Assembly: GCA_033065855.1 (NCBI GenBank)
Contig: JAVXUO010002909.1
Coordinates: forward strand, 62,001-126,000
DNA from: Escallonia rubra
Lineage: Eukaryota; Streptophyta; Magnoliopsida; Escalloniales; Escalloniaceae
Reading direction: 5' to 3'
DNA length: 64,000 nucleotides
Shown here: piece by piece, positions 4,831 to 61,200 of the stretch
Layout: every line of letters starts with the position of its first letter
Numbering within the stretch: position 1 is the stretch's first letter
Translations under genes and position numbers: made by a program
Notes under the pieces: model-generated
Database searches by the model: none
Told to the model about the DNA's origin: nothing
What the model saw: the letters and a program-made list of their open reading frames with translations, nothing else

Positions 4831-7800
4831 ATGATTACTGATAGCTACTCGAAGATGGTGTCGGATTACGGAATGCAGTACGGGGAGGAGCTGGGGCTGC
4901 TGCTGAGGGAGCGGCGGCGGCAGGAGGCGGCGGCGAGCGACATGTACCGCAGCGGCTCTGCCCCTCCCACGGTGGAGGGATCGCTGAGCGCCGTCGGAGG
5001 GCTGTTCAACGGCGGAGGTGGTGGTGGCGGGGATTTCGGGGGGATGACGGAGGAGGAGCTGAGGGCTGATCCGGGGTACATTTCTTACTACTACTCGAAC
5101 GTGAATCTGAACCCTAGGCTGCCGCCGCCGCTGCTGTCCAAAGAGGACTGGCGGTTTGCACAGCGGAGCTCCGCGATTGGGGACAGAAGGAAGGTGAATA
5201 GGAGTGGTGGTGGTGATGATGCAGGTGTTGGGCGTAACAGTAGGTCTCTTTTTAAGGGACAGGGTTCGGGGACGGAGTGGGGAGGCGACGGGCTGATCGG
5301 GTTGCCGGGTTTAGGTTTAGGGAGTAGGCAGAAGAGTATTGCGGAGATCATTCAGGTGAAAGTTTGTTGATCAAGAATATGGTATTTGGTTCAAAGTTTG
5401 AATCTTTAATTGGTGCTTGAACATGTTTGACGTTATATATTCACTTAGTTATAATCTCAGAACTTATGCTATGTGCTGAAGTTTGATCTTTGAGTTATTA
5501 TGTGTATAAGAATGACATTAGGTTCAGAATCCTGGTTTTTGGCAAATATTTCTGCGATATGGAATCCATTGTGATGTAACGTAGTTTGAGGTTTTGTTGG
5601 CAACATTTCCATTTTAATCTCTTTTTTGCTGTTTGTTTCCTCGCGACAGTGTACTTGAAATGGATGCTCAAAATCATAATGCTAAGGATTCACACTTTTC
5701 GTCAAATTTGTTACCTTAGTAGTGGTTTCTGTATCTTTCTGGTTAAGGACCTTGCCACTGTCGGTATGCTAATAAAAGCACGTCCCTTCACATTAAACGG
5801 ATGAGTTTTTATTTCAGTTAAAGGGGAAAAAGAGGAAAAGCCAAGTGTCTTGCTTTCTTGGTGGAATCTCTTTAATCGAGGTTCTACGAGATGGAATTTG
5901 TGATCTAAGGTGCTAAAGGCGGGTTTCTTCCGTGTTCTTGATTGGTATTTGGAAAATGCCTGAAAGTTTAGGTGGTATGCAATTTCCAGACCAATTTTTT
6001 TCCTTCTTTTTCTGGTAATGCAGATCAGGGAAGTGTCTCCTTTCTTTCTGTTTCTGTGTTAGTATCTGGTGCCTCATGCAAGCAATTGTAGCATGATCAA
6101 CTTTGGGACGAGATGGTGGCGTTGACGACTCTTCTGTAAGTAATCGTGATAGTAACATTCCTGTAATCGGGAATCAGATCTTACAGAACTGACTTCACCA
6201 CACCCTTTCCGAATGTGTGATCCACTTTACTGGGTTAACTCAATGTGAAAGCAACATAGGATTTTAAGGTATTTCTGGAGCGCTTTCTATGGATGTAAAA
6301 TCTTCGCTGGCCTTTGTCTTACCATCAAATCTCTGCATCTATCTCTTGGGCATGCATATCATCATCTTGTTTCTACTCTTCAGTGTTCCTCCACTCCCCG
6401 CCGTGCGTCGTTCCCGATTAAGTAGCTTTTTGCCTCTGGACCTTACTACCCCCAAAATTATTCTCACATTCCGTTCTGACTTTTGTATCCTTAATGGGAA
6501 GATTGGTCGTCACGTAGGCTACTCTGGATCCTATTCTTTCCTACGCTTCTTCTCTGTTTGATTAGCCCAAACAAGAGAAATTATGATCTTGGACTAGAGT
6601 CGTATGCTTTGAGGATTCGGAGTTTGCATATTATATAGCTTTCGTATGACTTTTGTACTGGACTTGTATAAATGCTCCCAACTCATGCTGTCTGTGTTCA
6701 CTATTCTGAAACAAGAAAGATCTTGTCGATGCGCTGGCATCTTCAGGTTCTTCTAGTGGAGGAGATTTATATTTGTACATGTTAAGTTCCATGATAGCGT
6801 GAGGAACGAATTGACTTTGAAAATTTCTTTGCTATTGCCTCTTTGGTTCATCTCCCGTGTGTCGATGTGTTAATCTCATGTATCTGACTATTTTCCTATG
6901 TAATCTAGGGTTCATCGAGTTTGGCAAACAAATTGCTAGAATTCCTCTGGCTTGCATTCTTCTTAACATGTTAGCTTTGAATTGTTTTAATTAGAGGTTT
7001 GGTGCTTAATGCAGGATGATATAAGTAATGCAACATCTATCTCAAGGCATCCATCTCGTCCAGCCAGCCGAAATGCATTTGATGACAGTGTTGAGTCGTC
7101 TGAATCCCATTTTGCTCAGCTTCATCAAGAAATGGCATCGATGGATGCTTTACGTTCTGGTGCAAATAGTCAAGGCACGTCTGGCATCCAAGGCATTGGT
7201 TCGTCAGCATCTCATACTTATGCTTCTGCTCTGGGTGCTTCCTTGTCAAGAAGTACGACTCCTGACCCTCAACTTGTGGCTAGGGCTCCTAGTCCTCGCA
7301 TTCCTCCTGTTGGAGGAGGGAGGGCTAGCTCCCTGGATAAAAGAAATGGGAACGGTCCAAACTCATTCAATGGTGTGTCCACTGGAATGAGCGAACAAGC
7401 TGATTTAGTTGCTGCTTTGTCTGGCATGACTCTAACGACGAATAGTATAGTAGACGAAGAGAACCATTTGCGGTCTCGAATTCAACATGATATGGATGAT
7501 CACCAGAACTTCTATCACTTGCAGAGCGATAAGAACCATGCTAAACAACCTTCATATCTTAACAATCATTCTGTCTCCCAATCAGTGAAAGGATCATATC
7601 CTAAAGGTAATGGGGTTGGGGTGGATCTGAACAGCGGTTCTTTTGTAGCTGATGGACAAGTTGACCTTCACAAGCCTGTCATGCCTTCTGCAAACTACTT
7701 AAAGGGGCCTTCTACACCAACTTTCAATAGTGGAGGAGGTTCACCTTCTCACTATCAGAATGTAGATAGTCCAAACTCATCATTTTCAAACTACGGCTTA

Positions 7801-10800
7801 AGTGGTTACACCATCAATCCTGCATCACCATCAATGTTGGGGAACCAAATTGGAGGTGGTAATATGCCACCTCTTTTTGAGAATGTTGCTGCTGCAACAG
7901 CATTGGGAGCAAACTTGACATTGGGACCAAATTTAATAGCTGCCGCCGCTGAATTGCAGAATCTTAGTAGAGTTGGAAATCACAATGCTGGGAGTGCTCT
8001 TCAGGTGCCCCTGATGGATCCATTGTATCTTCAGTACCTGAGATCGACTGAGTATGCTGCTGCGCAGGTTGCAGCTCTGAACGACCCAACAATGGACAGG
8101 GACTGCATGGGTAATTCATACATGGATTTACTCGGACTGCAGAAAGCTTATCTTGGGACACTGCTTTCACCTCAGAAGTCGCAATATGGTCTTCCCTACC
8201 TGGGCAAATCTGGTAGTATGAACCATGGTTACTATGGAAACCCTGCATTTGGTCTTGGCATGTCATATCCTGGAAGCCCAATGGGAGGTCCTCTTCTCCC
8301 AAACTCCCCCATTGGGTCGGGTAGCCCTGTCAGGCATGGTGACCGGAACATGCGTTTTCCTTCTGGGATGAGGAACTTAGCTGGAAGTGTCATGGGATCA
8401 TGGCACTCAGAAGCTGGCGGTAACTTGGATGAAAGTTTTCCGTCCTCTTTACTAGATGAGTTTAAGAGCAATAAAACGAAGTGTTTTGAGCTTTCGGAAA
8501 TTGCGGGTCATGTTGTTGAGTTCAGGTATGTGTTGCTTGCTGATACCGTTGGTAATGGTATTGCCCTTTGCTTTCATTGAGCCCTTCAAAGATTAATAAA
8601 TTTTTCTTAAAACCTTTTGGGAGCAGTGCGGATCAGTATGGAAGTCGATTTATTCAACAGAAACTAGAAACTGCCACTACTGAAGAGAAAAACATGGTTT
8701 TCCATGAAATCATGCCTCAAGCTCTTTCATTGATGACTGACGTATTCGGTAATTATGTAATCCAGAAGGTAGATAACTTGCTTATTTTGTCATCTGTTAT
8801 GTTTATTAACCTGGTATTACTAACTGTTGTATGTTTTGTTACGCTGTGAATAACTTACACTAGTAATTAGTAATGATTGTTACAAGTTGCTCCACTTATT
8901 GCTGTTTTACAGTTTTTCGAACATGGAAGTGCATCTCAAATAAGAGAACTTGCTGACCAGCTTACTGGGCATGTTCTGACCCTTAGTCTTCAGATGTACG
9001 GTTGCCGAGTGATCCAGAAGGTATATCATAGCTGTTCATGTATTTCATTTTTGACAAATGCAATACCTTTCATAGGCTTCATTAGGCTTGCACGCTTGTT
9101 ATCCTGATATCACCTCATTTATGAGCTACAGCTAAGTAATACTCTTTTTATCCAATATCTACAGAGGTTGCATGCAAATTTTGGAAAAAAGTGGGCGGAG
9201 TTTAAACCAGCTTATAGATGGTTCTAGAAAGAGTGGAGAGTGCCACTTGTGTATATATTTCTGAACTGCATTACATCATGTCCCTGCTAAATTTAACTTA
9301 TGGATAAGAATTTTATCTTTATTTTCTGGAATCTCAAGGCCGCAGTCCGTTAATTGACTATGCCCCTGATTCTTATTTTAAGAATTAGGGGCTAATGCCT
9401 CTTTTTCTTTTATAGATGCTTGTGAATTTCGCATAAGAAACGAGTCCGCCATTCCTGTGCTTCTATTTCTAGGTTGAATGATTCAAAAATGTATCCCCCA
9501 AGTTGGGAGGTTGAGACAGACCTTGATTCTACCTCCACTCCATTGCTTATGCATGAAAAGCTATAGCATATCGAAGGAGTACTGTGTTTACTTGCGTTGT
9601 TACTGCTGAAAATTATATTTGACACGCTTTCTTTGGCTTTCCAGGCTATAGAAGTTGTTGATCTGGACCAGCAAACTAAAATGGTTGCAGAGCTTGATGG
9701 CAATATAATGCGTTGTGTACGTGATCAGAATGGAAATCATGTCATCCAGAAGTGTATTGAATGCATACCTGAAGATGCTATTCAGTTTATTGTTTCCACA
9801 TTTTACGATCAAGTTGTGACATTATCCACCCATCCATATGGTTGTCGTGTCATACAGGTTAAGCAAGTTGTGTAGTTATTTATTACGTGTTTCTGAATTG
9901 AGTATATTTGGACGAGAGATGGAAATGTGTATATACATGTGAATTTAAAAGTAGTTTGCCCTTCACATGACAGAGAGTCCTGGAGCATTGCAGTGACCCC
10001 AAAACACAGCGTATAGTGATGGATGAGATTTTGCTGTCCGTGATCATGTTGGCACAAGATCAGTACGGGAACTATGTTGTTCAGGTTTGCCATTGTCCTC
10101 GCAAGATATTATAAACACTTTTGACATGTTTAGGCTTTCTCGTTTGTCAATATTAATTTTCGAGCAGTAAGTTATGCAGTACTTGCTCAGTCACTTGATT
10201 TGTATCTGTTTCTTGAGAATTTCTCAACTTAACCAAGCCTTTATCCGGAAGTAGTTAGGTCAAGCTACACCACTCTCCCCTATCCAAACTCATTTTTTTT
10301 TCTTCTGATAGATCTCTAACAATCCAGTCTCACTACCTTTTTCTACCCCAATTCTTAGCATAAATCTCTTTTCCTTACTATATACTGGTTGAGCATGAGA
10401 AATAAACTGTGCGCTTTGATCCAGGGCAGCACCGTTATCTTTCTGTTTTGCATGACCAAGCACTTACAGTGAATACTCTGCAGAAACTTGATGGCCGTTC
10501 GGTCTTGAGTGTATTGTCACTGATTTACATAATCAAAATTTCATCGCCTCAGTAACATGCTCGAAACTTCATAATCTGGAGAGTGGTTGTTGTCAAAGCG
10601 TGATTTGTACTAAGATCGTGTTATTTTCACTGGCTGCTTTCTTTTGTTTTCTGCATCTGTTGTATGTTGAATGTTCACGATATATGTCTTTCTTCCTCTT
10701 TATACTGGACTGCTGATACTTGCAAATATACTAACAGCATGTACTGGAGCATGGAAAGCCGCATGAACGCACTGCTATAATTGATCAATTAGTTGGGCAG

Positions 10801-20284: not shown

Positions 20285-20305
20285 GACTTCTTAAGATAGG
20301 CAAAA

Positions 20306-23300
20306 ATGGCATCTGGGTTGGAACCTGTAGAGGTGACATCCCAAAAACATGATCCAGCATGGAAGCATTGCCAAATGTACAAGAATGGTGATAGGGTACA
20401 GCTCAAGTGTAACTACTGTGGGAAAATCTTTAAAGGTGGTGGGATACATAGGATTAAGGAACACCTGGCTGGCCAAAAGGGCAATGCATCAACTTGTTTA
20501 AGGGTTCAGCCTGACGTTCGCCTTCAAATGCTGGAGAGCTTGAATGGGGCTGTGGCGAAAAAGAGGAAGAAACAAAAGCTGACTGATGAGATTGTCATAT
20601 ATAATGGTTCTGTTAGCGAGATAGACACTTTTGCCAATCAGTGTGGGTTGAACACTGAAGTGGAATTGCTTCCTGTTCCCGATACACTTGAGTCAAATTT
20701 ATTAATGAATCAAGAAGAGGGAATGAGCAAGAGAAGTAGGAAGAAGAAAGGGAGAGTAAGAAAAGCGTCCGCTTCAGCAATTGCTAACCCTAATGTTATG
20801 AGTAATGGTACTGTGGTAGGTTCGAAAAGGGCAATCAATCAAGTTCAGTTGGCAGTAGGGCGGTTTTTGTACGATGTTGGGGTGCCTTTAGATGGGGTTA
20901 ATTCGGTTTATTTCCAACCAATGGTCGATGCAATTGCATCCCAAGGCTCGGGAGTTGTTGGTCCGGCCTATCATGATCTCAGGAGCGGGATTTTGAAGAA
21001 TTCTGTCCAGGAAGTGAGGAATGATATCGATCAATGCATGGGGACTTGGGGCAGGAGCGGCTGTTCTGTTTTGGTTGACGAATACATTTCAGAGAAAGGG
21101 AAAACGTCGATAAACTTTTTGGTTTATTGTCCAGAGGGAACAATGTTCTTGAGGTCTGTGGATATAACTGACATTGTGGATTCCACTGATGCTCTATATG
21201 AGTTGCTAAAGGAGGTTTTGGAGGAGGTTGGAGTGAGAAATGTGTTGCAAGTTGTTACTAATTGCGAAGAGCGATATGTTGTCGCAGGGAAAAGGCTGGC
21301 TGATACTTTCTCTACTGTGTTTTGGACTCCTTGTGCGGCTTGTTGCATTGATTTCATGTTAGGGGATTTCAAGAAACTTGAGTGGATAAATACAATCCTA
21401 GAACAAGCTAAATCCATATCAAGATTTATCTACAATCACAGCACTGTTTTGAACATGATGAGAAGGTATACTCTTGGAGTGGATTTAGTTGAGCCAGGAG
21501 TTACTCGCCCCGTGACTGATTTCACAACACTGAAACGAATGGTAAACATCAAACACAATTTGCAGTCCATGGTTACTTCAGAGGAGTGGATGGAGTGCCC
21601 CTATTCAAAGAAACAAGAGGGATACACAATGTTAGATTATATCAGTAACCAGTCGTTCTGGTCTACGTGCATATTAATAACCCGCCTAGTTGATCCTCTC
21701 TTGCGGCTTTTGAGAATAGTTGGTAGTGAGAAGAGGCCTGCAATGGGATATGTTTATGCGGGAATATATCGAGCAAAAGAAACAATCAAGAAAGAATTTG
21801 TTAATAGGAAGGATTATATGGTTTATTGGAATATTATAGATCACAGGTGGGAACAACTTCAGCGTCATCCTCTTCATGTTGCAGGCTTCTACCTCAATCC
21901 CAAGTTTTTCTACAGTACTGAAGGAGACATACATCTTCACCGGTCCTTGGTGTATGATTGTGTAGAGAAATTGGTTCCTGATCCGAAAATCCAAGATAAA
22001 ATTGTGAAAGAGACGACATCATACCACAACGCTGTTGGAGATTTTGGGCGGAAGATGGCAGCAAGAGCTAGGGATACTTTACTTCCTGGTGAGGTTCTCT
22101 GCATCAAGTGAAAGCTATCTGATTTTAGTGAGTGACCCCTGTTTGTTTTCTTTACTAGTTATTGAGCATTATAACTTTGAAACATATGCTAGCGTCTTTC
22201 CAATAAAGGCTTAAGTAAAAGCACGCCGCCAATTGTTTCAGTTCCACTATTTTTTATTAGTTACTGGTAGCCTTTTTTTACTACTACGTGGCTTGTTTAG
22301 AGACATTTAGCCAAAGGTCGTCCCTAGTCTGTACCGACATGAAGTTCTTTCAGAAGCTCATTAAATGCTGGAGATTCTTTCATCAGGGCAAGAGCCTGAG
22401 ACGAGGATCCCGTGCTTTGTCTATGCATTATGGCAGACATGCTTGCGGTTAGATAAATTGTTCGTGCTTGGCTTTGTAGTGGCTCAATGTAGGAAATGTA
22501 GGCTGACGCGCACATAACCGGTTATTGCCAAATGGTCTATACCAGTGCATTTTTTTGGCACGTTGATTATGGCCTGCTTTATGTTTCTCGTTTACACTGT
22601 TTAGTGTTCCACATACTAGGAGGGAGTACCAGTGAATCATATTGCGAGGTCTCAATCAGCTGATTCTATTGGATTGTATTAGGTGAATGGTGGTCAACAT
22701 ATGGAGGGGGATGCCCAAATTTGGCTCGTTTGGCTATCCGCGTTCTCAGTCAGACTTGTAGTCTGATTCTTCCTAAACCAAGACATATTCACTTGGAACA
22801 AATGCACGAAAGGAAGAACTGCTTAGAGCATCAGAGATTATGTGACCTTGTCTTCATTCAGTACAACATGTGGCTGAGACAATTGTATGTAAAAACATTT
22901 GAACCATCTTTTAGATACTGGTAAATTCATGACGGGGGGAAATCTAAAGAATCTCTCTCTTTCGACTGACTTTTCAGGGTTCAGAAGAATGAAGAACAGG
23001 ATGCATTGGATCCTCTAGCGTACGACAACATTAATATTGTTGAGGACTGGGTCGCAGAGAAGGAGTTATGCTCAGAGGACATCGGAAGCTCAGACTGGAC
23101 GACAATTGAGCCGCCTTATGGCAACACAATGCTTTTACTACCGTCAATGGATGAATTTGAAGCCTTAGGTGCAGGTATCCACATTGCCTTGCTCTTCAAA
23201 AGCTTACTGAAGAAACTTTTTTTTACGAGCTTTATTAACTGCTACACACTTCTCTTGCAGGGTTTGATGATTTTGAAATTTTTGAGGGAGTAAAAGATAG

Positions 23301-25114: not shown

Positions 25115-27190
25115 CTACCTGTTGCTGCTATGCGCACCTCCGGTGGTAGATAGTGGCGAAGCAGAACCGGCTTCGATATCAACCTCCCCATCCCTATCAC
25201 CCACGGACGACCACGCGCTCACTTTCTCAAAATAAGACGACGATGGATATGAATGCACAAAATCCTCAAAGTCAACACCACCATCGCCCCCCTTCTTCCC
25301 GTCATACTCGTTAGGTGGCGCCAGAACCTCAGGCAGCGCCGCCTCCCCTTCCAAGTACCTCAATACCTGCCGCATACTCGGCCTAGCAGAGGTGGCATTG
25401 TTGGAGCAAATTAACCCCAACTTGAGCACCACCACCGCCTCTACCTCATCATACTCCCCACTCAACCTTTGGTCGACCACTTCAAGTATAGCTCCTTCCT
25501 TCCATTTCTCCCACACCCAATCTACCAAAATAAGCTCCTCAGGCAACGCTTTCGGCTCAATAGGCCGCCTTCCACACACCACTTCCAACAATAATGCGCC
25601 AAATGCAAAGACATCCGAGCTTGTGGTGGGCTTCCCCGTCCTCGTGAGCTCGGGGGCCAAGTAACCCAATGTGCCCACCACTCTGGTTGTGCTCGGGTTT
25701 GAACCATGCTCGTATAACTTGGCTAGCCCAAAATCGCCCAATCGGCCATTCAACTCTGCATCTAGCAACACATTTCCTGCTTTGATGTCTCTGTGAATCA
25801 CGGCTTGTTCCCACTCTTCATGCAAGTATAACAACCCACAAGCCACACCTTTGATGATCTTGAACCTCTGTTCCCAAGTTAAAATCATCTTGGGTTCCTC
25901 ATAAATGTACTTATCTAAGCTTCCATTAGGCATGAAATCATACACAAGCAACAGATCCCCTCTCCGTCGACACCATCCTAGTAACTGAACCAAATTCCTA
26001 TGTCGGAGACGGCCAATACTAGCAATCTCAGACATAAATTCGCGCAAACCTTGCTTTGATTCATGGGAGATCCGCTTAACCGCGACTTGGGTTTTTGAAT
26101 TAGGTAAAGTTCCTTTATACACTCTGCCAAATCCGCCAAACCCAAGTAATTCTTTGTCTCTAAACTTCCTAGTTGCTTGCTTTAGCTCTTTGTAGGAATA
26201 TCTACGTGGACCAACATCAATCTCCCAATCTTCAACCACATCCATGTTCTTGACCTTTTTGTAAAGATAAATGGCAGCGGAAACTGCAATGACTGTAAAA
26301 ACCACCAGAGATACAGATATACCTACAATCAACACAGTGTGATCCTTTTTCGGTCCAGGAAGTGAAGGAAGAGAAGATAAATCTAAGGATTCAGCTCTTC
26401 CATTCATCTTGAAACTCCAACCGAAAATATAATGCGAACTAGCAAGCAAACCAGTTGAAGCAGAAAAACCAACATACATATAATCTTCGAGGTACGGTGC
26501 AAGATCAACATGAAACGACAAGATTGACATACTGGGCTTTGATGAGGAAAGCGAAAGAGTGACATTGAGCTCATTTATAACCGAATCATAATCGATCCAG
26601 GCTTGAATAGTCTTGCCACTCTTGATATTTAGGGCTTGTTTGGTCGAGTTGCCTTCCATAAAATAGCTGGCATTCACAGAAACATTGGAAACTAGGCTGT
26701 TTATGTCGATGCCAACATGGTTGTCATTTATGTCACCGAATTCAAAGTCCTGAACGGTGTCGAATTCGACTGCTATAACGTGGTTTGAGAAGTTACCGTT
26801 GTCACTGGAATTGAGAAGGCCCAAGTACTGGCTGGGAAGTGCACCTGTAAGCTCTTTTGTGGACGAGATTGTGAAGGCTAAACCATGGCCACCAAGCTTA
26901 AAGTACTCAGGAACTATGGCAAAAGCGAAAGCAGTGGAAAACGAGAAGGATTTTCCTATTTTGGAGTTCTTGAAGTTTATTGGATTTGGGTAGAATGCAT
27001 GACCAATCAGGCGACGGGTGTCATTGGTGAGCTTGAGGATGCCATTGCTTTCTATTTCTGCAACCCCATTTAGGCTTATGTTGTTGCGGAGATGTTTAAA
27101 TCCATTGAAATTGAACTCATCCAGCCGAGAGAGAACTTGGTTTGAGAGGAAAAAGAAAGCCCAGAAGATTGTTAGGAGTGCTTTGGCCAT
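25115..27190 (-). CDS. LECRKS4: L-type lectin-domain receptor kinase, LecRK-S.4-like
   Basis: A single-exon frame of 691 aa, the usual size and exon structure of plant L-type LecRKs. Residues 1-21 form a signal peptide; 22-265 a legume-lectin domain (LDEFNFNGF start, AVEFDTV and [10 protein letters not shown] metal-site region, ending [10 protein letters not shown]); 286-310 a membrane helix; about 344-615 a kinase with glycine loop GFGGFG (350-355), Lys372 (VAVKRIS), HRD at 466-468 and DFG at 486-488. The catalytic residues are all present, so it should be an active plasma-membrane Ser/Thr kinase. The sequence follows Arabidopsis LecRK-S.4 (At3g55550) closely along its length, as I recall it ([22 protein letters not shown] motifs). 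Such receptors act in pathogen and wound perception and pollen development; the ligand here is unknown. It lies inside U1 but is absent from U2 and U3. Confidence 0.95.
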
Positions 27191-28067
27191 TGCAGACTTG
27201 AGTTGAAGCTGTTTCTGGGTCAGAAGGGGGTTAAAGTATAGTTGTTTGGTGGGGTGGGTGCCTGAGTGGTGGGTTATATCTTAATGAACTTGTTTGATGT
27301 ATGGTGCTTAGCTTATTGATTTTTAACACTTGTTTTTGGCTGGGTTACTTACAGAGAGAGAGAGGTGGGGTGAACCCCACTACGAGTTTTTGGACAGGAC
27401 TCCTTGGTAACAAGATCCTCAACCAACTGCTGAAGTGTGTATTATATAAAGTCCAGAATTTATATGAACAGTGCACCATCAGCTCTTATTCGGACGACAC
27501 GAGTTTTTATTTCAGATTACGAGTTTTTATTGACAAATAGTTATCTCACAGTTGACGTGATATAGGCTCACCATCTAAGAATATCCGAGGTCGGTCGATG
27601 TAAAGAGAGAAAAATGTGATGGGTGATTTCCTCATGCAAGTTTGACACAATAGAACACACAAAGGAAACAGCACATGGCTTGCAGGTTGCAGCGGAGGAT
27701 CTGAAAATGTTGCACTACATGTGGAGTGTTGCTAGTGCTATTGAGTAGTGCCCCTTGTTTCCCCCTCTAAGTTGCCCGCCTACTTTAATTTACCTTGTTA
27801 CCAGACTCTTGACTCGTGAGTGATGAGGCCATGTGAAATGAGTGTGTGCTTTTGGGGCGTGGCAGATGGTTCCAGTCTTTCTCTTGTCATCTTGGGAAAG
27901 ATTTTCTTTCCTGACGTCCAAGTCCAGTATCAATCAAAGGCTAGTGGTGTTCGGAATCTATTTTTTCTACTGCCACTTCTCGATTGGCGATATGTATACT
28001 TTTGGCTTTAGTTATATCTTGAGCTGAACTCAGTGCAGCACCATCGAACTGTAGCAAATGATGTTGA
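27191..28067. other. Upstream flank of the lectin kinase
   Basis: The proximal part should contain the kinase promoter on the minus strand; no unambiguous TATA box was assigned. From 27751 the sequence is shared with U2 (43778 onward) and U3. No other gene is seen. Confidence 0.5.
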
Positions 28068-38200: not shown

Positions 38201-40111
38201 CGACTTTCCCTCCACGTCTGCGTCTGACACTGCTCTACCATCTCCTCCTCCTGCCCATCAGTCTCGTACAACTTTTGGTAGGTTAGTTCAACCTAATGTT
38301 CGTTTACGAGATTATGATTGCTCTGTCCCTCTATCTACTCTTCATGAACCTACTACCTATACAGAAGCTTCTAAGGACCCACTGTGGTAGAAGGCTATGA
38401 ATGATGAATTAGATGCACTCACTAAGACTCATACTTGGGATTTAGTTGATCTGCCTCTAGGTAAATCTGTTGTCAGTTACAAGTGGGTGTACAAGATCAA
38501 GACACATGCATGATGGCAGCATTGAACGTTACAAAGCTCGGCTTGTAGCAAAAGGATATACGCAGGAATATGGCATTAATTATAAGGAGACCTTTGCTCC
38601 TGTTGCTCGTCTTACATCCGTCCGAGCTCTCATTGCAGTTGCCTCTGCTCGCTATTGGTCTCTATTTCAGATGGACGTCAAAAAATGTTTTCCTTAATGG
38701 GGAGCTCATTGAGAAAGTATACTTGAAACCTCCGCCTGGTTATCCTCATCATCCACATCAGGTGTGTCATCTCCGAAAAGCTCTTTATGGTCTCAAGCAA
38801 GCTCCCAGGGCTTGGTTCTCTAAGTTCAATTATGTCCTCACATAGCTTGGATTCGCTTCCAGTGCCTATGATTCTGCTCTATTTTGTCGACAGTCTAACT
38901 CAGGTTTGATCTTAGTACTGTTATATGTTGATGACATGATCATTACGGGCGATGATCTTTCAGGCATTCGTACCCTTAAAATCTCTCTCAGTCAACAGTT
39001 TGAGATGATGGATCTTGGTGATCTTCGATACTTTCTTGGTCTTGAGGTCACCTCTCATCACACTGGATATTTTCTTTCTCAGATCAAGTATGCTTCTGAT
39101 TTGGTCTCTAAGTCTGGCGTCTCTTCAAGTGATACTGTTATGTCCCCTATGGAGGAAAACTGGGAGCATAGTACATTGACTGGTGAACCTCTTTCGGATC
39201 CTACCTATTATAGACAACTAGTTGGGAGCCTGATTTATCTCACTGTTACTCGACCAGATATTGCTTATGCAGTTCATCGGGTTAGCCAGTTCATGACCGC
39301 TCCCTCCACCGTTCACTTGGCTGGTGTTCTTCAAATTTTGCGATATGTGCAGGGTACTCTATCTCATGGCTTGCACTATCCATCCGCATCCTCTCTACAG
39401 CTCATTGCCTACTCTGATGCAGACTGGGGACGCGATCTTGTCGATCGTCGCTCCACTACAGGTTTTTGTTTCCTTCTAGGTAATTCTCTCATCTCCTAGC
39501 GCAACAAGAAGCAGTCCATTGTCTCTCACTCCAGCACTGAGTGTGAATATCGCTCTCTTGCTGACACTACTGCTGAGTTAGTTTGGTTGCGATGGTTACT
39601 TGGAGACATGGGTGTCTCTTTTGACTCTGCTACTCCTATTCATTGTGACAGTCAGAGCGCTATCCAGATCACTCACAATGATGTTTTTCATGAAAGGACA
39701 AAACACATTGAGATTGATTGCCATGTTACTCGTACACATCTCACTCGTGGTATCCTTGAGCTCATTCATGTATCTTCATCCAATCAACTTGCAGATGTCT
39801 TCACGAAGTCCTTCTCCGTAAAGAACTTCTTGCATTTCATTTCCAAACTCAACCTGGTCTCTGGTCGACCACCTTGAGTTTGAGGGGGGATATTAGAGTC
39901 AACTTCGTAAATTAAGGAATCTCCTTAATTTACTCACAATCATATCAATCTGTCATATCAATCTTGTTGTATCTTGTCAATCCTTAATTTGTATCTTGTC
40001 AATCCTTGATTTATTCATTGTATTAATTGCTAGGTCAACTGTAATGCCTATAAATACAGGCCTCCGATGTACTCTTAAACACACAGAAATATAACATTTT
40101 TTGTTTCAACT
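35271..40111 (+). mobile_element. Ty1/Copia LTR retrotransposon (fossil, broken)
   Basis: LTRs of about 222 bp (35271-35494 and 39891-40111) differ at roughly eight positions plus a small indel, suggesting a fairly young insertion. A 5-bp target repeat CCACG flanks it (35266-35270, 40112-40116), and U1 near 22612 gives the empty site. A primer-binding site for initiator tRNA-Met (TGGTATCAGAGC) follows the left LTR, and a purine tract (GAGGGGGG) precedes the right one. The parts occur in Copia order: Gag-like region (UBN2 type), GAG-pre-integrase, integrase, reverse transcriptase (with the YVDDM motif) and RNase H. It is broken, with about ten interruptions in its coding region, so it is not autonomous. 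Confidence 0.95.
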
Positions 40112-41457
40112 CCACGTTCTGAAAAAAGAGAATCAGCCAATCATACTGCTAAGTCTCAATCAACTGATTCTATGTGTTGAATGGTGGTCAACATATGGAG
40201 GGGGCTGCCCAAATTCGACTCGTTTGGCTATCCGCGTTCTCAGTCATACTTGTAGTTTGATTCTTTCTAAACCAAGACGTACTCGTGTTTGAACAAATGC
40301 ATGAAACCAAGAACTGCTTAGAGCATCAGAGATTTAAGTGACCTTGTCTTCGTTCAGTACAACATGTGGCTGAGACATTTGGATGTATATAGACATGGAA
40401 CATCTTTTAGATACCAGTAAATTGATGACAGGTGGGAAAATGTAAAGAATCTCTCTCTTTTAAATGATTTTTCAGGTTTCACAAGAATGAAGAACAGGAT
40501 GCAGCGAATCCTCAAGGGCAGAGGCGGAACACAAGCATGGCCAGGGGGGCCATTGCACCCCCCCCCCCCCCCCCCGCAAAAAAAAAGTTTAAGAATCTTT
40601 TTTTAGTTGTTTTAGAAAATGAGTAGTTATGTTTAAAATATATATTAAAATGCCACCATATTATATATTAATGTATTAGATTTCATTTTGTTATGTTTTT
40701 TACTTTTTATGCCACCGGCTGTCGTAATCTCTATCTTTCTCATTTCCTTGTCCATCTTCATTCTTCCAAATTCTAAATATCTAGATTTTAAAGAAAATAC
40801 TAATATATCAAGGTTAGCTTATTTTTTCCCCTTTTTAATTCAAATTCTTATAGTGTGTTAACTCATACGTAACTATTGTCATCATACAATTGATAATCGC
40901 ACTAATAATACATAGGGATAATATCACTTATATCCCTGAGTTTAGGGGTAAATTACAGTCAAAGATACAAGTTTTAAAAATTTGCACTCTTATCCAAAAA
41001 GTTAAAATTGTGTATCATATATGACCACCGTTAGGGTTCTGTGACCCTAACTAACGGTTTTTGCTGATGTGGTAATATCATATTTTGAAAATGACAATAT
41101 TACCCCTAATACATATTTTATACATATCCTCTTCCTTCCCATTTTCTCTGTTCTCTTCCCATTTCTCTTCTCGCTCTCATAATCTTGATTCTGTCTTCCC
41201 ATCTCTATCTAATTCTAATGTCTAATTCCAAAACAAAATGCCACCACCTACGACCTCCACGGTCGTCCCACCATCGGCGTCACCTCCAACACGAAAACCA
41301 AAACCACCACCATACCCACCCACACCACCACCATCAGTCCAGCCATACGCACCACCACCGTCGTTTCAGTCATAAACCAGCCAGTCAACGGGGAATCACA
41401 AGTCACCAAACCCACCACAAACCCATCACAGATTCGATCCACCACCACCACCACGGC

Positions 41458-41556
41458 ACATTGAGAAGAACCTGAGTCACGGGGTGGACTCGGTAGAGTT
41501 CGTGGAGCTGATGATGGGCTCAGGGCTGGTGTGCAACGACTCTGTGAGCTGGGTGA
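41458..41556 (+). pseudogene. Captured fragment of a CAF1-type (CCR4-associated factor 1) deadenylase
   Basis: The + strand reads [20 protein letters not shown] then [16 protein letters not shown]. Plant CAF1/POP2 DEDD-type deadenylases share this block (GVDSxxFAELMMSSGLVxN...WVTFHS). Only about 33 codons are recognisable, and the frame closes soon after (TGA near 41593). The catalytic acidic residues lie outside it. The proline-rich stretch upstream (41239-41457) is not recognisably CAF1. Confidence 0.78.
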
Positions 41557-41584
41557 CGTTCCACAGTATTTCGAGAAAACGCAC

Positions 41585-42215
41585 CTGGGTCAGATGAGCT
41601 AGAAACCGATCCTCCGCCGCGCCGCTCGTCTGGTTCAACTTCAGCAACGGCTTGAGCCGCTCAGCCGTGCGGCAGGCCCCCATAACCTGCATATCTAGGG
41701 CCTGCAGCCACTGCAGAACCCCATCCTCCCTTTCGAACAACAGATCCCCGTCACCGTCATCCACAAGTATGTCCGTCAAACGCTCCGTTAGCCCAGCCTC
41801 ACCGCCCTGCCTCGAATCTCCCAAATTCTCGGAGATCTCACGAGACGACGATGACTCGTTGGTCCCACGATCGTCGATCGATTCGTCCGTATCCTCAAAT
41901 CGCTCGTTGTCGGGACTGGTCATTGCGAATCGTGTACCCACGGGCAATGGTTCAAATGAGATTCTGGTTGTGATGCCTAATTGGGGTTTAATGCCAAATT
42001 TCGTGGGTTTGGGTGTGTGTCGTGCGAGTTTTGATTGTGTGTTCTGTGGAGGTGGTGGGGGGTTGGAGAGTGGGAGAAGGGGAAAAAGAGAGAGAGGATG
42101 GGAAAAGAAAGAGAGGAAGGAGAGAGGTTGAGGGTGATGGAAGAAGAGAGAAATAGAAGAGAAAGGGAAGAAAGAGAGAGAGAGAGAGAGAGGGGAGGGA
42201 TTTGGTCTCAAGGGC
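41585..42215 (-). pseudogene. Captured 5' end (leader plus first coding part) of an unnamed plant gene
   Basis: On the minus strand a CT-rich leader-like stretch (42215 to 41924) leads to an ATG at 41923 that opens MTSPDNERFEDTDESIDD, then ILVDDGDGDLLFEREDGVLQ, WLQALDMQVMGACRTAERLK and PLLKLNQTSGAAEDR up to LAHLTQ near 41585. This has the look of a real conserved acidic plant protein start, but I cannot name the family. The open frame runs on through the antisense of the CAF1 piece to 41477, making a 246-codon chimeric frame if read from upstream. Whether it is transcribed is unknown. Confidence 0.6.
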
Positions 42216-43108
42216 AATCATGTCATTTCATGCAAAATTTTAACACCGTTCGTATTCTATTTGGTCAACGGACATAAGTGATATAAACGCAAACCCGTGT
42301 CATCGGCTGTAATTTACCCCTAAAGTCAGGGATATAACTGATATTATCCCTAATACATATATACAATAAGTGTTAAGTTTCTTTCATTCAAGATTAATAA
42401 TTTGTTGTTGACTAACTTTGTAAGTTAAATAAATCACTATGAATAGTGAAATTATATGATTATTAGTCAAATTGAGCAATATATTTTGCATTTAACGTAT
42501 TCACACGCGACGCGAATTCTCTTATGTTAATCGTTAATTTTTTTTCATGACATTTTGGTCCCCCCCGGTTGGACTTCCTGGATCCACCCTTGCTCTAGCG
42601 TACGGCAACATTAATACTCTTGAGGACTGGGTCACTGAGGAGTTATGCTCAGAAGAAATGGGAAGCTAAGATTGGACGACAGTTGAGCGGCCTTATGGCA
42701 ACACGATGCTTTTATTACTATCGATGGATGAATTTAAAGCCTTAGGTGCAGGTATCCACATTGCATTGCTCTTCAAAAGCTTACTGAAGAAACTCTTTTA
42801 CGAGCTTAATAAAAACTGCAAAAAAATATTCTCTTGCAGGGTTTGATGATTTTGAAATCTTTGAGTAAGAGATAGTACGTGAAGATGAAACTGGAGAAGA
42901 AAATTTAGTGAACCAATAGAATGTAGCTAAGAGATGTCTTTTAGAAGCAAATGACTTGGAGGGTCAACTTGGGAAAAGGTGATGGTTGATGTTCTATAAC
43001 CAGGCAGCAGGAAATGTGAAGGATTAGCAATCAAATTTAAAAACAAATATCTGCGTCGGTGTGCTAATGTGAAGGATTAGCAATGAAATTTCTGCTTAAC
43101 CATTCATC

Positions 43109-57880: not shown

Positions 57881-58227
57881 CTCTATTCTTCTTATCACCA
57901 TGTTGTTTGTCCTTCTCTTTGATTTATCTTTAGGCTTTCTATTAAGGATTCTTACGTTGGTTTATGCAATTGGTGTTTACATACATTTAAGGGAGTGGAT
58001 TTCTTTTTTCAATGATTTCCTTTTTAATTGAAGGGAAAAGTGAAGATTATGCTGCATATATGTAAGCTGGTATGTCAATGATATTGCACATAATTGAAAG
58101 GAGTATTAGACCTATGATTTTTGAGTGTATTCACACTGAGATACGATTGAAAATGTGGTTTCTATTGTATGCTTAAACTGTCATCTTTGTTTTCATGGTT
58201 ATAAATAACACGGCTTAACTTAATGCT

Positions 58228-61200
58228 GTAAAAGATAAAAAGTTTGGTTTATTATGTGGCAATCGATATAATGGTGGGATAAGGAGAATGAAGGTACATC
58301 TTACTGGGATTGGAACTGATGCAAGAAAGTGTGGATTAGCCACTGATGATGTACAATATGAAATTATAGAGTACATGAAAAAGAAAAAAAGGAAAGGACT
58401 TGAGAAGGATGATGATTCATTGTCAAATGGGGCTTCATCCAAAAAATTGCCGCGCGTAGGGATTTCAGTAGATGCAAATGTTGCTTTTTCTCCTACCAAG
58501 GTGCAGTGTCAAACTAATGTTGATGATCATAACCTCGAAAAGATTGAGGAAAGAAATATAGTCATCCAACACTTTGCAAAATGGATGTACCAAGCAGGGG
58601 TATCTTTTAATGCAGTTAAATTGAGGAGCTTTGCCCAAGCACTAGAAGTTGTTGGACGTTATGGGGTGGGTTTGAGCCCTCTGACCTATCACGAGGTGAG
58701 GGATCTATGCCTTAGAAAAGAAGTTGAAAACACGAAAGAGTTGTTCTTATTACAACAAACCTCATGGAGGAAGTATGGTTGTACTATTATGTTGGACGAC
58801 TTGGGTAACGTTAATGGCAAGAGAATAATAATCTTTTTAGCTAATTGCCCCGGTGGAACTTTTTTCTTGAAGTCTATTGATGCGTCTTGTAAGATTCATG
58901 ATCATAATTTTCTTTATTCGGAGTTGGATAAAGTGGTGGAAGAAGTAGGAGAAGAACATGTGGTTCAAGTTATTTCCCATAATGGAGAGGCTTATATGAA
59001 AGCTGGCAAATTGCTGATGGAAAATAGAAAATGCCTGATCTATGCACCGTGCGTTAGCCATGGCATCAACCTTATCTTAACAAACTTTTCAGAAACGCCA
59101 GTGACAAAATCCATTATTATGGATGCAAGAGAAGTCACTTCATTTATTTATAGCCATAAACTTATCCTTGCATTCATTAGGAAAGAAACGGGGGGTAAAG
59201 AATTGGTAAGGGCTGGTTTGACTCAATCTGTATCTGCATTCTTAACTCTTCAAAGGCTTTACACGCATAAGCAAAGCCTTAAGGCATGGTTTGTTTCAGA
59301 AAAATGGACCCAGAATCCATTGTCAAGAAAATATTGTGGACAAAGAGTTTCAAATTTGGTCTTAAGTTCTAACTTCTGGAGAAGCATTTGTCATGGTCTC
59401 AGGGTTGGGCAACCATTGCTTCAAGTGTTGAGGTTAGTTCATGGTGATGAAAAGCCTCCAATGGGCTACGTCTATGCTGCCATTAGATATGCAACATAGG
59501 AGATTCGCTCTTTTTTTGGTGATAAGCACAACTATTGTGAAAATGTCTTGAAGGTAGTCTCTAAGAGATGGGTTGAACAGTGTAATCAACCTCTTCATGG
59601 TGCTGGCTACTTCCTTAACCCAGGCTATTACTATGATAGGAAAGAAGTTGAGTGCGATTATGAAGCCTTGCTTGTGTCGAAATTATGACAAGGAGTCCAA
59701 ATAAGGAAGATGAGATTCTTACACATGTAGATTCGTACAAGAATGCTAAAGATTTGTTTGGGAAAGGTTCAACAATAAGATTGAGATCAAAGAAGCAGCC
59801 AAGTAATCATCTAACTTGATTTTTCGTTTTCGCATATTCTGAATTTCATGTTACTATGAAATGTCTTACCCTATCTATATTGCACTTTGTCCTTAATAGC
59901 TGAATGGTGGGACACCTTTGGCAATGGAACTCCAGAATTGAAACGCATGGCATTGCGTATTTTGGGCCTTTGTTACAGTTCATCAGCCGGTGATAGAAAA
60001 TGGGTCGATTTTGAACTTGTAAGCTCAAAGCCTTTCAAATTTTTATGTTTTAATCTTATTGAAATTGTAGGCATGCAATTTCATTTATTCCTTCTACCAC
60101 ATTCATCCTCATGGAAATAAGCAAAAAATATTCTCATAAAAGGTTCTTCAAAGGTTCTTCAATCGTTAAGTTGCCTGGTAAAATTTGTTAATTTGTGACA
60201 GCTTTCTATCCTATCTCTATGCTTTCAAATTGAAGATTAATTTTTGCCTTAGCATTGTTATTTCTATACTCGCGTACTATAGACTCTTTTTTGCATCTTA
60301 TTTGTGTTCCTTGTGAGTAGGGGTTGCCCAAATCGCCTATTAAGTGCTCCTGTATACTGCCTGATGCTGCTGCCTGCATAACTACGCATATTGGTATTTA
60401 AGTTTACCAAGGAATGTCCCTGATGAGTAGGATATATTGCAAAACTACGCATGATTTTCCTGTACACTGCCTGATGCGCGCTGCTGCCTGCATATTGCAA
60501 ATTATTTGCTCGATGCATAATGGAGTACTTGTTTCTTTTTGTTTTTTCAACTGAAAACTTGTTTCATGTTCTTTCTTCTTCGGCTTGTTGCTCAAATCTG
60601 CATATTTCATTAAGACTCCTTCGACTCTGTAACCTTCATATGACATTAGATTCTACCTGCACGCTAACCGAAAGAACCTTGCTATATGCATGAAGTATTG
60701 CAATCACAACTTCTCTTAACTGCACATGTGCTAATATACGGCTTATGATTATGCCTAACCTAATTTACTTGCCACATTCAGATTCACTCAAAGAATATTA
60801 ACCGACTTGAGCAAAAAAGGTTGAATGATCTTGTGTTTGTCCAGTATAACCAACGTCTCCATGAAAGGTTTCTAATAAGACAGTCAAGCCCGGGGGCTTA
60901 TGACGCTATATCATACGATGAGGTCAATGAATCGAGTGAATGGCTGACTAGATTAGTGCCTGCTGAAGATAAGTTTCATTTTCTTGGAAACCTTCGATGG
61001 TCCGAAGTTAACTCACAATTTGAGGAGTCAGGGTCCTTGGCAACTTGTTTAAGGAACAAGACCGGAGACAGATATGCAATCTTTGATGACGATAAAACTC
61101 AACCCCCGGATCCAGGATCATGTAAGGAATTTGATGACAATGAAACTCAACCCCTGGATCCAGAATCATGTAAGGAAGCAAAAGCAGAATTTGCTGAACT

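Follow-up and report, generated by a model that had tools for sequence, protein, structure and literature searches.

Probable stepwise assembly of a young Pack-MULE-type element from older elements and host-gene fragments in Escallonia rubra

The window element and its insertion site

The window is a 64,000-nucleotide stretch of Escallonia rubra DNA from contig C1240 of a 566-Mb genome, and DNA searches were run genome-wide. Several frames lie outside the element considered here. On the plus strand, a full NABP domain (E 1.5e-168), which we associate with plant Pumilio proteins, is encoded at 6991-8580. Frames with a DUF659 domain, accompanied by a BED zinc finger in the first case, are found at 20300-22111 and 58219-59499 on the same strand and are possibly derived from hAT transposase. 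A 721-codon frame on the minus strand (25115-27280) combines a legume lectin with a protein kinase domain, which also occur together in lectin receptor kinases. A fragment of an RVT_2 reverse transcriptase (38846-39499, plus strand), which we take to be copia-type, lies approximately 1.4 kb upstream of the element.

The segment at 40915-42350 is, judged from its sequence, a young non-autonomous Pack-MULE-type transposon of 1436 bp. As the first-pass annotation had reported, both 9-bp sides of its target site duplication are perfect (TAATACATA), and its inverted ends are nearly perfect. The outermost 43-44 bp contain 2 mismatches and the outermost 60 bp contain 8; a second alignment of the ends covered 62 bp at 87% identity. 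The ends of the element family read GGGATAATATCA. Assignment of the element to the Mutator superfamily is based on the 9-bp duplications and the long terminal inverted repeats. A query joining the two flanks across the site returned at least 40 matches at 87-96% identity (the best 40 of 2121 candidates), together with three partial or weaker ones. Two of these matches were aligned in full and are empty sites in which the duplicated bases are present once. Thus, the insertion is real and the element is nested in a repeat, as had been proposed from the window alone. The features of the element are listed in Table 1.

Table 1. Features of the element at 40915-42350 and of the DNA around it (window coordinates; arm positions are those of the element)
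Feature	Position	Strand	Remarks
Host repeat around the element	40615..42592	.	Element-free copies elsewhere; 40615 is the start of the query and the repeat is possibly longer leftward
Left 9-bp target site duplication	40906..40914	.	TAATACATA
Left terminal inverted repeat	40915..40958	+	44 bp, 2 mismatches against the right one; similarity to about 60 bp
Left arm, positions 1-548	40915..41462	+	Putative class B origin; nearest copies L024/L025
Shortened CAF1 deadenylase tract	41463..41566	+ (sense)	Putatively inherited from class C/A3 elements
ATG-initiated ORF, 148 codons	41477..41923	-	119 codons from the captured piece; remainder antisense to the CAF1 tract
C2371 gene piece, 366 bp	41567..41932	- (sense)	L023 4980-5345
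Right arm, positions 1017-1436	41931..42350	+	Putatively from class C/A3; 2-bp microhomology overlap with the gene piece
Right terminal inverted repeat	42307..42350	-	Compared with the left terminal inverted repeat
Right 9-bp target site duplication	42351..42359	.	TAATACATA

No transposase was detected inside the element, whose longest frame has 246 codons and in which two frames were scanned without a Pfam match. No autonomous partner with the same ends was identified among the relatives fetched, of which the two with matching ends (L080 and L081) are again short elements. The MULE transposase domain PF10551 is abundant in the genome (at least 150 matches listed, 3309 candidates). Many of the listed matches are frames of 777-783 codons with equal scores, suggesting that an autonomous MULE family has recently amplified. 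L080 (C1080) and L081 (C2173) form a separate short family with matching ends, lengths of 1375 and 1372 bp, and perfect 9-bp duplications. Their open frames of 123-127 codons are alike in both and may represent a further captured gene.

Copies, donor genes and coding capacity

Searching the whole genome identified at least 10 full-length copies of the window element, itself included, at 95% identity or more; each DNA search scored its best 40 candidates, and all copy counts are lower bounds. Elements with assigned borders were sorted into classes A (9 and the window), A3 (2), B (13), C (17), D (4), and E (2), with two internally deleted A-type copies (L018 and L022) and one older B-like element (L062). 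L021 ends at a contig end, L040 is a partial view of L071 and was replaced by it, and five loci (L043, L059, L060, L061, and L063) were left out for want of convincing borders. Two pairs are single insertions seen twice, namely L024/L025 (300 of 300 flanking bases identical on each side) and L053/L055 (flanks 99.7% identical).

Perfect 9-bp duplications, 95% A+T, flank 37 of the 50 bordered elements besides the window, a set that includes the two repeat sightings, and were found at 0 of 960 shifted positions; agreement of the duplication was the first criterion in choosing borders, and the shifted control was free of that choice. Among the 10 full class A copies, window included, seven have perfect duplications. 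Comparison of the nine fetched full class A copies (the window not among them) revealed no matching flanks, and flanks of some elements outside class A have repeats in common. Since full copies occupy several sites without flank matches, class A is mobile. The mean distance among class A copies is 0.9-1.9% over positions 1-1018 and 4.1-4.2% in the right arm, the latter being raised by copy L017 and by a short tandem repeat. The C2371 insert differs from its donor gene by 3.4%, and we infer that gene capture came shortly before the spread of class A. L017 (C1031:347380-348784) has a divergent right arm and a long tree branch; its last 116-126 bp match class B copies at 87-91%, perhaps owing to a further exchange.

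The first-pass annotation had suggested that parental genes be sought elsewhere in the genome, and both were found. Positions 653-1018 of class A are matched at at least 17 places, and the sole source that is not an element is the C2371 gene (L023), at 97% identity over 366 bp. All remaining matches lie in elements: 12 full copies (2 A3 and, counting the window, 10 class A), a pair of incomplete A-type copies, and, in class E, 37-bp remnants at two places. The captured piece comprises 9 bp preceding the ATG, 339 nucleotides of the first coding exon, the splice donor CAG/GT, and 18 intron nucleotides, the intron being deduced from the CAG/GTGCGT site rather than from a transcript. Because the 18 bases past the splice donor match the parental intron, the piece was copied from DNA, and capture of a cDNA is ruled out. 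The earlier reading of this part as a leader followed by the natural start of a gene was correct for the ATG (C2371 gene, 97%) and incorrect for the leader, only 9 bp of which are parental; the sequence beyond them belongs to an older element, whose right arm it forms. The C2371 gene was not given a name, as its exon 1 had no Pfam match and a Pru domain in a downstream frame scored 12.7 bits for a cut-off of 25.

Positions 551-652 of class A match the intact CAF1 gene (L072, C1189) at 91% over 102 bp, in agreement with the CAF1 piece first annotated on the plus strand. The ORF at L072 contains Pfam domain PF04857 (E 8.6e-21). The longer CAF1 tract of class C (280 bp) is 87% identical to the same ORF, and class C also matches C2913 (81%, 123 bp). 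Class B matches a SWIRM-domain gene at C2176 (88%, 336 columns). The G+C content of five captured pieces is 0.48-0.65 versus 0.36-0.45 for the whole donor loci; as an exception, the 500-bp flank to the right of the C1881 piece (0.554) exceeds the piece itself (0.523). The element thus contains fragments of two host genes whose parents are not transposable elements (C2371 gene, 97%; CAF1 gene, 91%). These data uphold the original view of a young Pack-MULE with two gene pieces in opposite orientations. That view stands in part, as it had missed that two other element families contributed to the element, which is a mosaic of them.

The 246-codon minus-strand frame, from which a new chimeric protein had been thought conceivable, does exist but extends from stop to stop, and only 148 codons follow its ATG. 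A functional new gene under selection could account for the persistence of the natural ATG and for an ORF that is open in 11 of the 12 A/A3 copies (148 codons in ten, 224 in L013; L020 stops at codon 73). These 12 do not include the internally deleted copies, namely L018, in which no start was found, and L022, whose ORF has 72 codons. With the majority state as reference and every distinct substitution scored a single time, we obtained 15 synonymous, 21 nonsynonymous, and 1 stop substitution in the captured part, where neutrality predicts 13.2, 22.1, and 1.7, and 20, 27, and 1 in the whole ORF, where it predicts 17.7, 28.1, and 2.3. No excess of synonymous substitutions was therefore detected in the ORF among these 12 copies, which afford limited power. 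The eight majority differences from the C2371 gene are four synonymous and four nonsynonymous. The ORF tail is the antisense of CAF1, and no Pfam family was matched at E 1. Since the counts match the neutral expectation in the insert and in the tail, the openness of the ORF is explained by youth; selection on the 148 codons was rejected, the proposal of a new chimeric protein is weakened, and a functional gene is very unlikely. The C2371 piece would rather be a passive cargo, its open frame having so far evolved neutrally.

One alternative is that class A elements produce antisense or small RNA directed at both donor genes, given that at least 10 full copies are about 97% identical to the C2371 gene and that the window copy is 91% identical to CAF1. 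Small RNAs from Pack-MULEs are mentioned in PMC8277862, which cites other work for them. Regulatory effects of class A on its donor genes are possible, as judged from these identities, and this role is a rather unlikely account of the elements.

Insertion of a gene fragment and joining of element families

Comparison of the classes indicates how class A may have been put together. Class C aligns with class A over positions 1-201 (mostly at 85-89% identity), 544-652, and 1017-1436, and positions 652 and 1017 of class A are adjacent in class C. A3 combines a C-type left part with everything from approximately position 544 to the end, including 653-1018. In 16 of the 17 class C copies, the insertion place reads TTCCACAG-CGTGT-ACCC or near variants, with 13 bp between the starts of the flanking words; the seventeenth, L066, has lost this place. 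In 11 of the 12 A/A3 copies, the insert lies at exactly the class C point, with a spacing of 377 versus 13. L017 escaped this pattern although its ORF has the same structure as in the other copies, and we infer that it was missed owing to a substitution at ORF position 351. The net gain of 364 bp corresponds to 366 parental bases minus 2 bp (CG) common to donor and element. The insert has a blunt left border and departs from the parent there at the third base, all matched copies having TATTTCGAG in place of parental TAGTTCGAG. A 3-nucleotide filler at this border was considered and rejected, as the bases are parental with one substitution. Border alignments revealed no duplication flanking the 366-bp insert. 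On these alignments, A3 (2 copies) corresponds to class C (17 copies) with 366 bp added at one point and no element sequence lost.

The opposite polarity, in which class C arose by precise deletion of 366 bp from an A3-type ancestor, would formally produce identical endpoints through a deletion with a 2-bp overlap. The insert splits CAF1-derived sequence that is contiguous in the CAF1 donor gene, in class C, and in L074, an older CAF1-bearing element devoid of the insert, and it is thus the derived state. In class C, CAF1 homology crosses the point (5 of the next 6 bases, by eye). Class C is defined by absence of the insert, which is consequently no independent evidence; the whole C-specific part occurs at at least 18 places, and the insert is present in only two of them, both A3. 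Origin of class C by deletion is thus extremely unlikely, and gain of the insert by a class C element is retained below.

The left part of class A points to another partner. Class B matches class A at 91-98% over positions 1-548 (in some copies only to 531-540) and at 80-84% over the last 188 bp. Mean distances of class A in positions 1-201 are 2.7% to B, 11.0% to A3, and 11.9% to C; the A-B distance is 3.0% in 202-540, a region present, among the matches listed, only in A, A2, B, and one older B-like element. To the right, distances to A3 are lower than those to C, both in 552-652 (3.4% and 7.7%) and in 1019-1248 (3.2% and 6.2%). In the last 188 bp, A3 (7.9%) is more distant from class A than E (3.2%) or C (6.5%), and the two A3 copies are 11.0% apart; these distances were given little weight because the stretch holds a short tandem repeat. 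The left-arm tree clusters class A with L024/L025 inside class B (89/96), none of its 21 inner branches reaching the strong-support mark. The right-arm tree separates a group of A and A3 from C (100/98), within which A3 does not separate from A. Both trees have midpoint roots and bootstraps that had not settled. Apart from A and B copies, a search for a host parent of the B-derived segment 202-548 listed B-like elements of greater age and shorter matches at 73-83%, with no demonstrable gene among them; loci with older B-like matches are L077 to L079.

All 10 class A copies and L018 have the same join: the B-derived part ends with GGCACATT and is followed by GAGAAG of the A3 CAF1 tract, with a TT at 41461-41462 that both partners share. 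The positions brought together are not homologous; the join is therefore not a product of ordinary recombination, and homologous recombination between B and A3 was rejected at this place. These comparisons suggest that class A consists of the left 548 bp of class B joined to the right part of A3. A different order of events, in which class A first formed without the insert and A3 originated by back-recombination, is less likely; the right-arm tree, which does not place A3 outside A, and the distances in the last 188 bp would fit this order.

Class E (L057 on C1875 and L058 on C1642) appears to record another step from A3. Its left 309 bp are A3-like (98.4% and 96.8% identity to L019; L057 is 96.4% identical to the class C copy L037), and of the insert it retains 37 bp, in which two variants agree with the elements and not with the gene. 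These 37 bp are followed by 568 bp at 99.5% identity to C1881 (L076) and by a C-type right end. According to the alignments, the overlaps at the class E junctions are ACC, CG, and GAAGG. Class E would thus have arisen from A3 by loss of most of the insert and gain of 568 bp of a third gene. This donor was not named, no Pfam or PDB match having been obtained; we take its frame to resemble a plant nuclear pore anchor/TPR protein. Between L057 and L058, 565 captured bp are identical, and seven of eight substitutions fall within the first 149 bp, which hints at conversion of that end.

Six junctions could be resolved to the base, older borders being left out. Their overlaps are 0, 2, 2, 3, 2, and 5 bp, corresponding to 2-5 bp of microhomology in five of six. 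Taking the junctions as independent, the probability of an overlap sum of at least 14 ranges from 0.0009 (match probability of 0.25) to 0.006 (0.3). Taken singly, two-bp overlaps are common, being expected by chance at 16-22% of junctions.

Assembly mechanism and relation to known capture models

The window element is very probably a non-autonomous Mutator-type Pack-MULE assembled stepwise, from class C through A3 to class A, with the gene piece as passive cargo. Because older forms and donor genes persist in the same genome, the sequence of steps is legible at the level of single bases. In the first step, a class C element with 280 bp of CAF1 would have gained the 366 bp of C2371, in inverse orientation, inside its CAF1 tract, thereby generating A3; the states before and after are both present in the genome. 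In the second step, the right part of an A3-type element would have become attached to the left 548 bp of a class B element, the two meeting at positions that are not homologous, which produced class A; both partners and the join are present. In the third step, class A spread to new sites, including that in the window. As to the chemistry, we propose gap filling with template switching: a double-strand break would occur inside the element, and repair synthesis would jump to another template with a match of 0-5 bp and then back. The break and its timing are presumed from the products, and the return to the point of departure would be an extension of the published gap-filling model.

The mechanism of capture by Pack-MULEs is still disputed, gap filling or template switching being opposed to re-mobilization (PMC8277862, PMC8903248, and PMC13317346). 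Gap filling or template switching at forks leads one to expect short overlaps and tolerates unlinked donors (PMC8277862). Tandem insertion with re-mobilization, in which two related elements flank a donor fragment and aberrant excision takes the left end of one and the right end of the other together with the host DNA between them, predicts that copies of the element lie next to the donor and that truncation occurred at two distinct points (PMC8903248). Fused elements of the latter kind have been described (PMC8903248), and the joining of a B left part to an A3 right part in class A could be such a fusion; this join is compatible with both models. The 366-bp step favors template switching because the element sequences on either side of the insert adjoin exactly in class C, the C2371 donor is on another contig, and no match to the ends of the element was found in its 9.9-kb locus (L023). 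Two truncated elements would have had to stop and resume at the same base of approximately 1350, by our estimate. Tandem insertion is less well excluded for the CAF1 and class E captures because end-like sequence is found approximately 3 kb from the donors: at L072 (470-1726), 73-80% identical over about 150 bp and about 3 kb from the donor tract, and at L076, weak matches of 73-76% over 67-74 bp at a distance of at least about 3 kb. As an explanation of the assembly, tandem insertion with re-mobilization is unlikely, and we retain template switching.

We consider it somewhat probable that the passages from class C to A3 and then to A, and from A3 to E, form a before-and-after record in which a circulating element acquires a piece of host DNA through templated insertion where it was broken at a point, its own sequence remaining intact, and then gains parts from other element families or swaps them through the same microhomology-guided process.

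The element resembles the Pack-MULEs of rice and other plants in its terminal inverted repeats, 9-bp duplications, lack of autonomy, GC-rich gene pieces, and multiple copies. It also shares with them the presence of pieces of two genes within one element; 5-10% of MULE-derived putative genes have at least two parents, according to PMC4858842. The difference is that the insert-free form, the form with the insert, the recombinant, and the donors coexist here in one genome. Animal Pack-TIRs, attributed to gap filling or FoSTeST, similarly have microhomology at their borders (median 2 bp) and distant donors in the multicopy case (PMC8277862), whereas the present case is from a plant, and here the insertion struck an element that was multicopy beforehand, two families being joined afterward. 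Class A, as a fusion of two families, is comparable to the fused Pack-TYPE elements (groups AB and BB) of PMC8903248, but its host insert is hard to explain by tandem insertion and re-mobilization. Among the titles and abstract openings listed, a scope that excludes the founding Pack-MULE papers and subscription papers, no comparable stepwise series was found.

Pack-MULEs as such are already known; what deserves interest here is that forms preceding and following the capture are preserved together. An end product alone leaves the capture models hard to distinguish. With an insert-free ancestor, its product, the donor gene, and two later recombinants all at hand, the models differ in what they predict, and sequence can decide between them. 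If this reading is correct, the mechanism of Pack-MULE capture would become directly testable, and population data could catch further steps of assembly.
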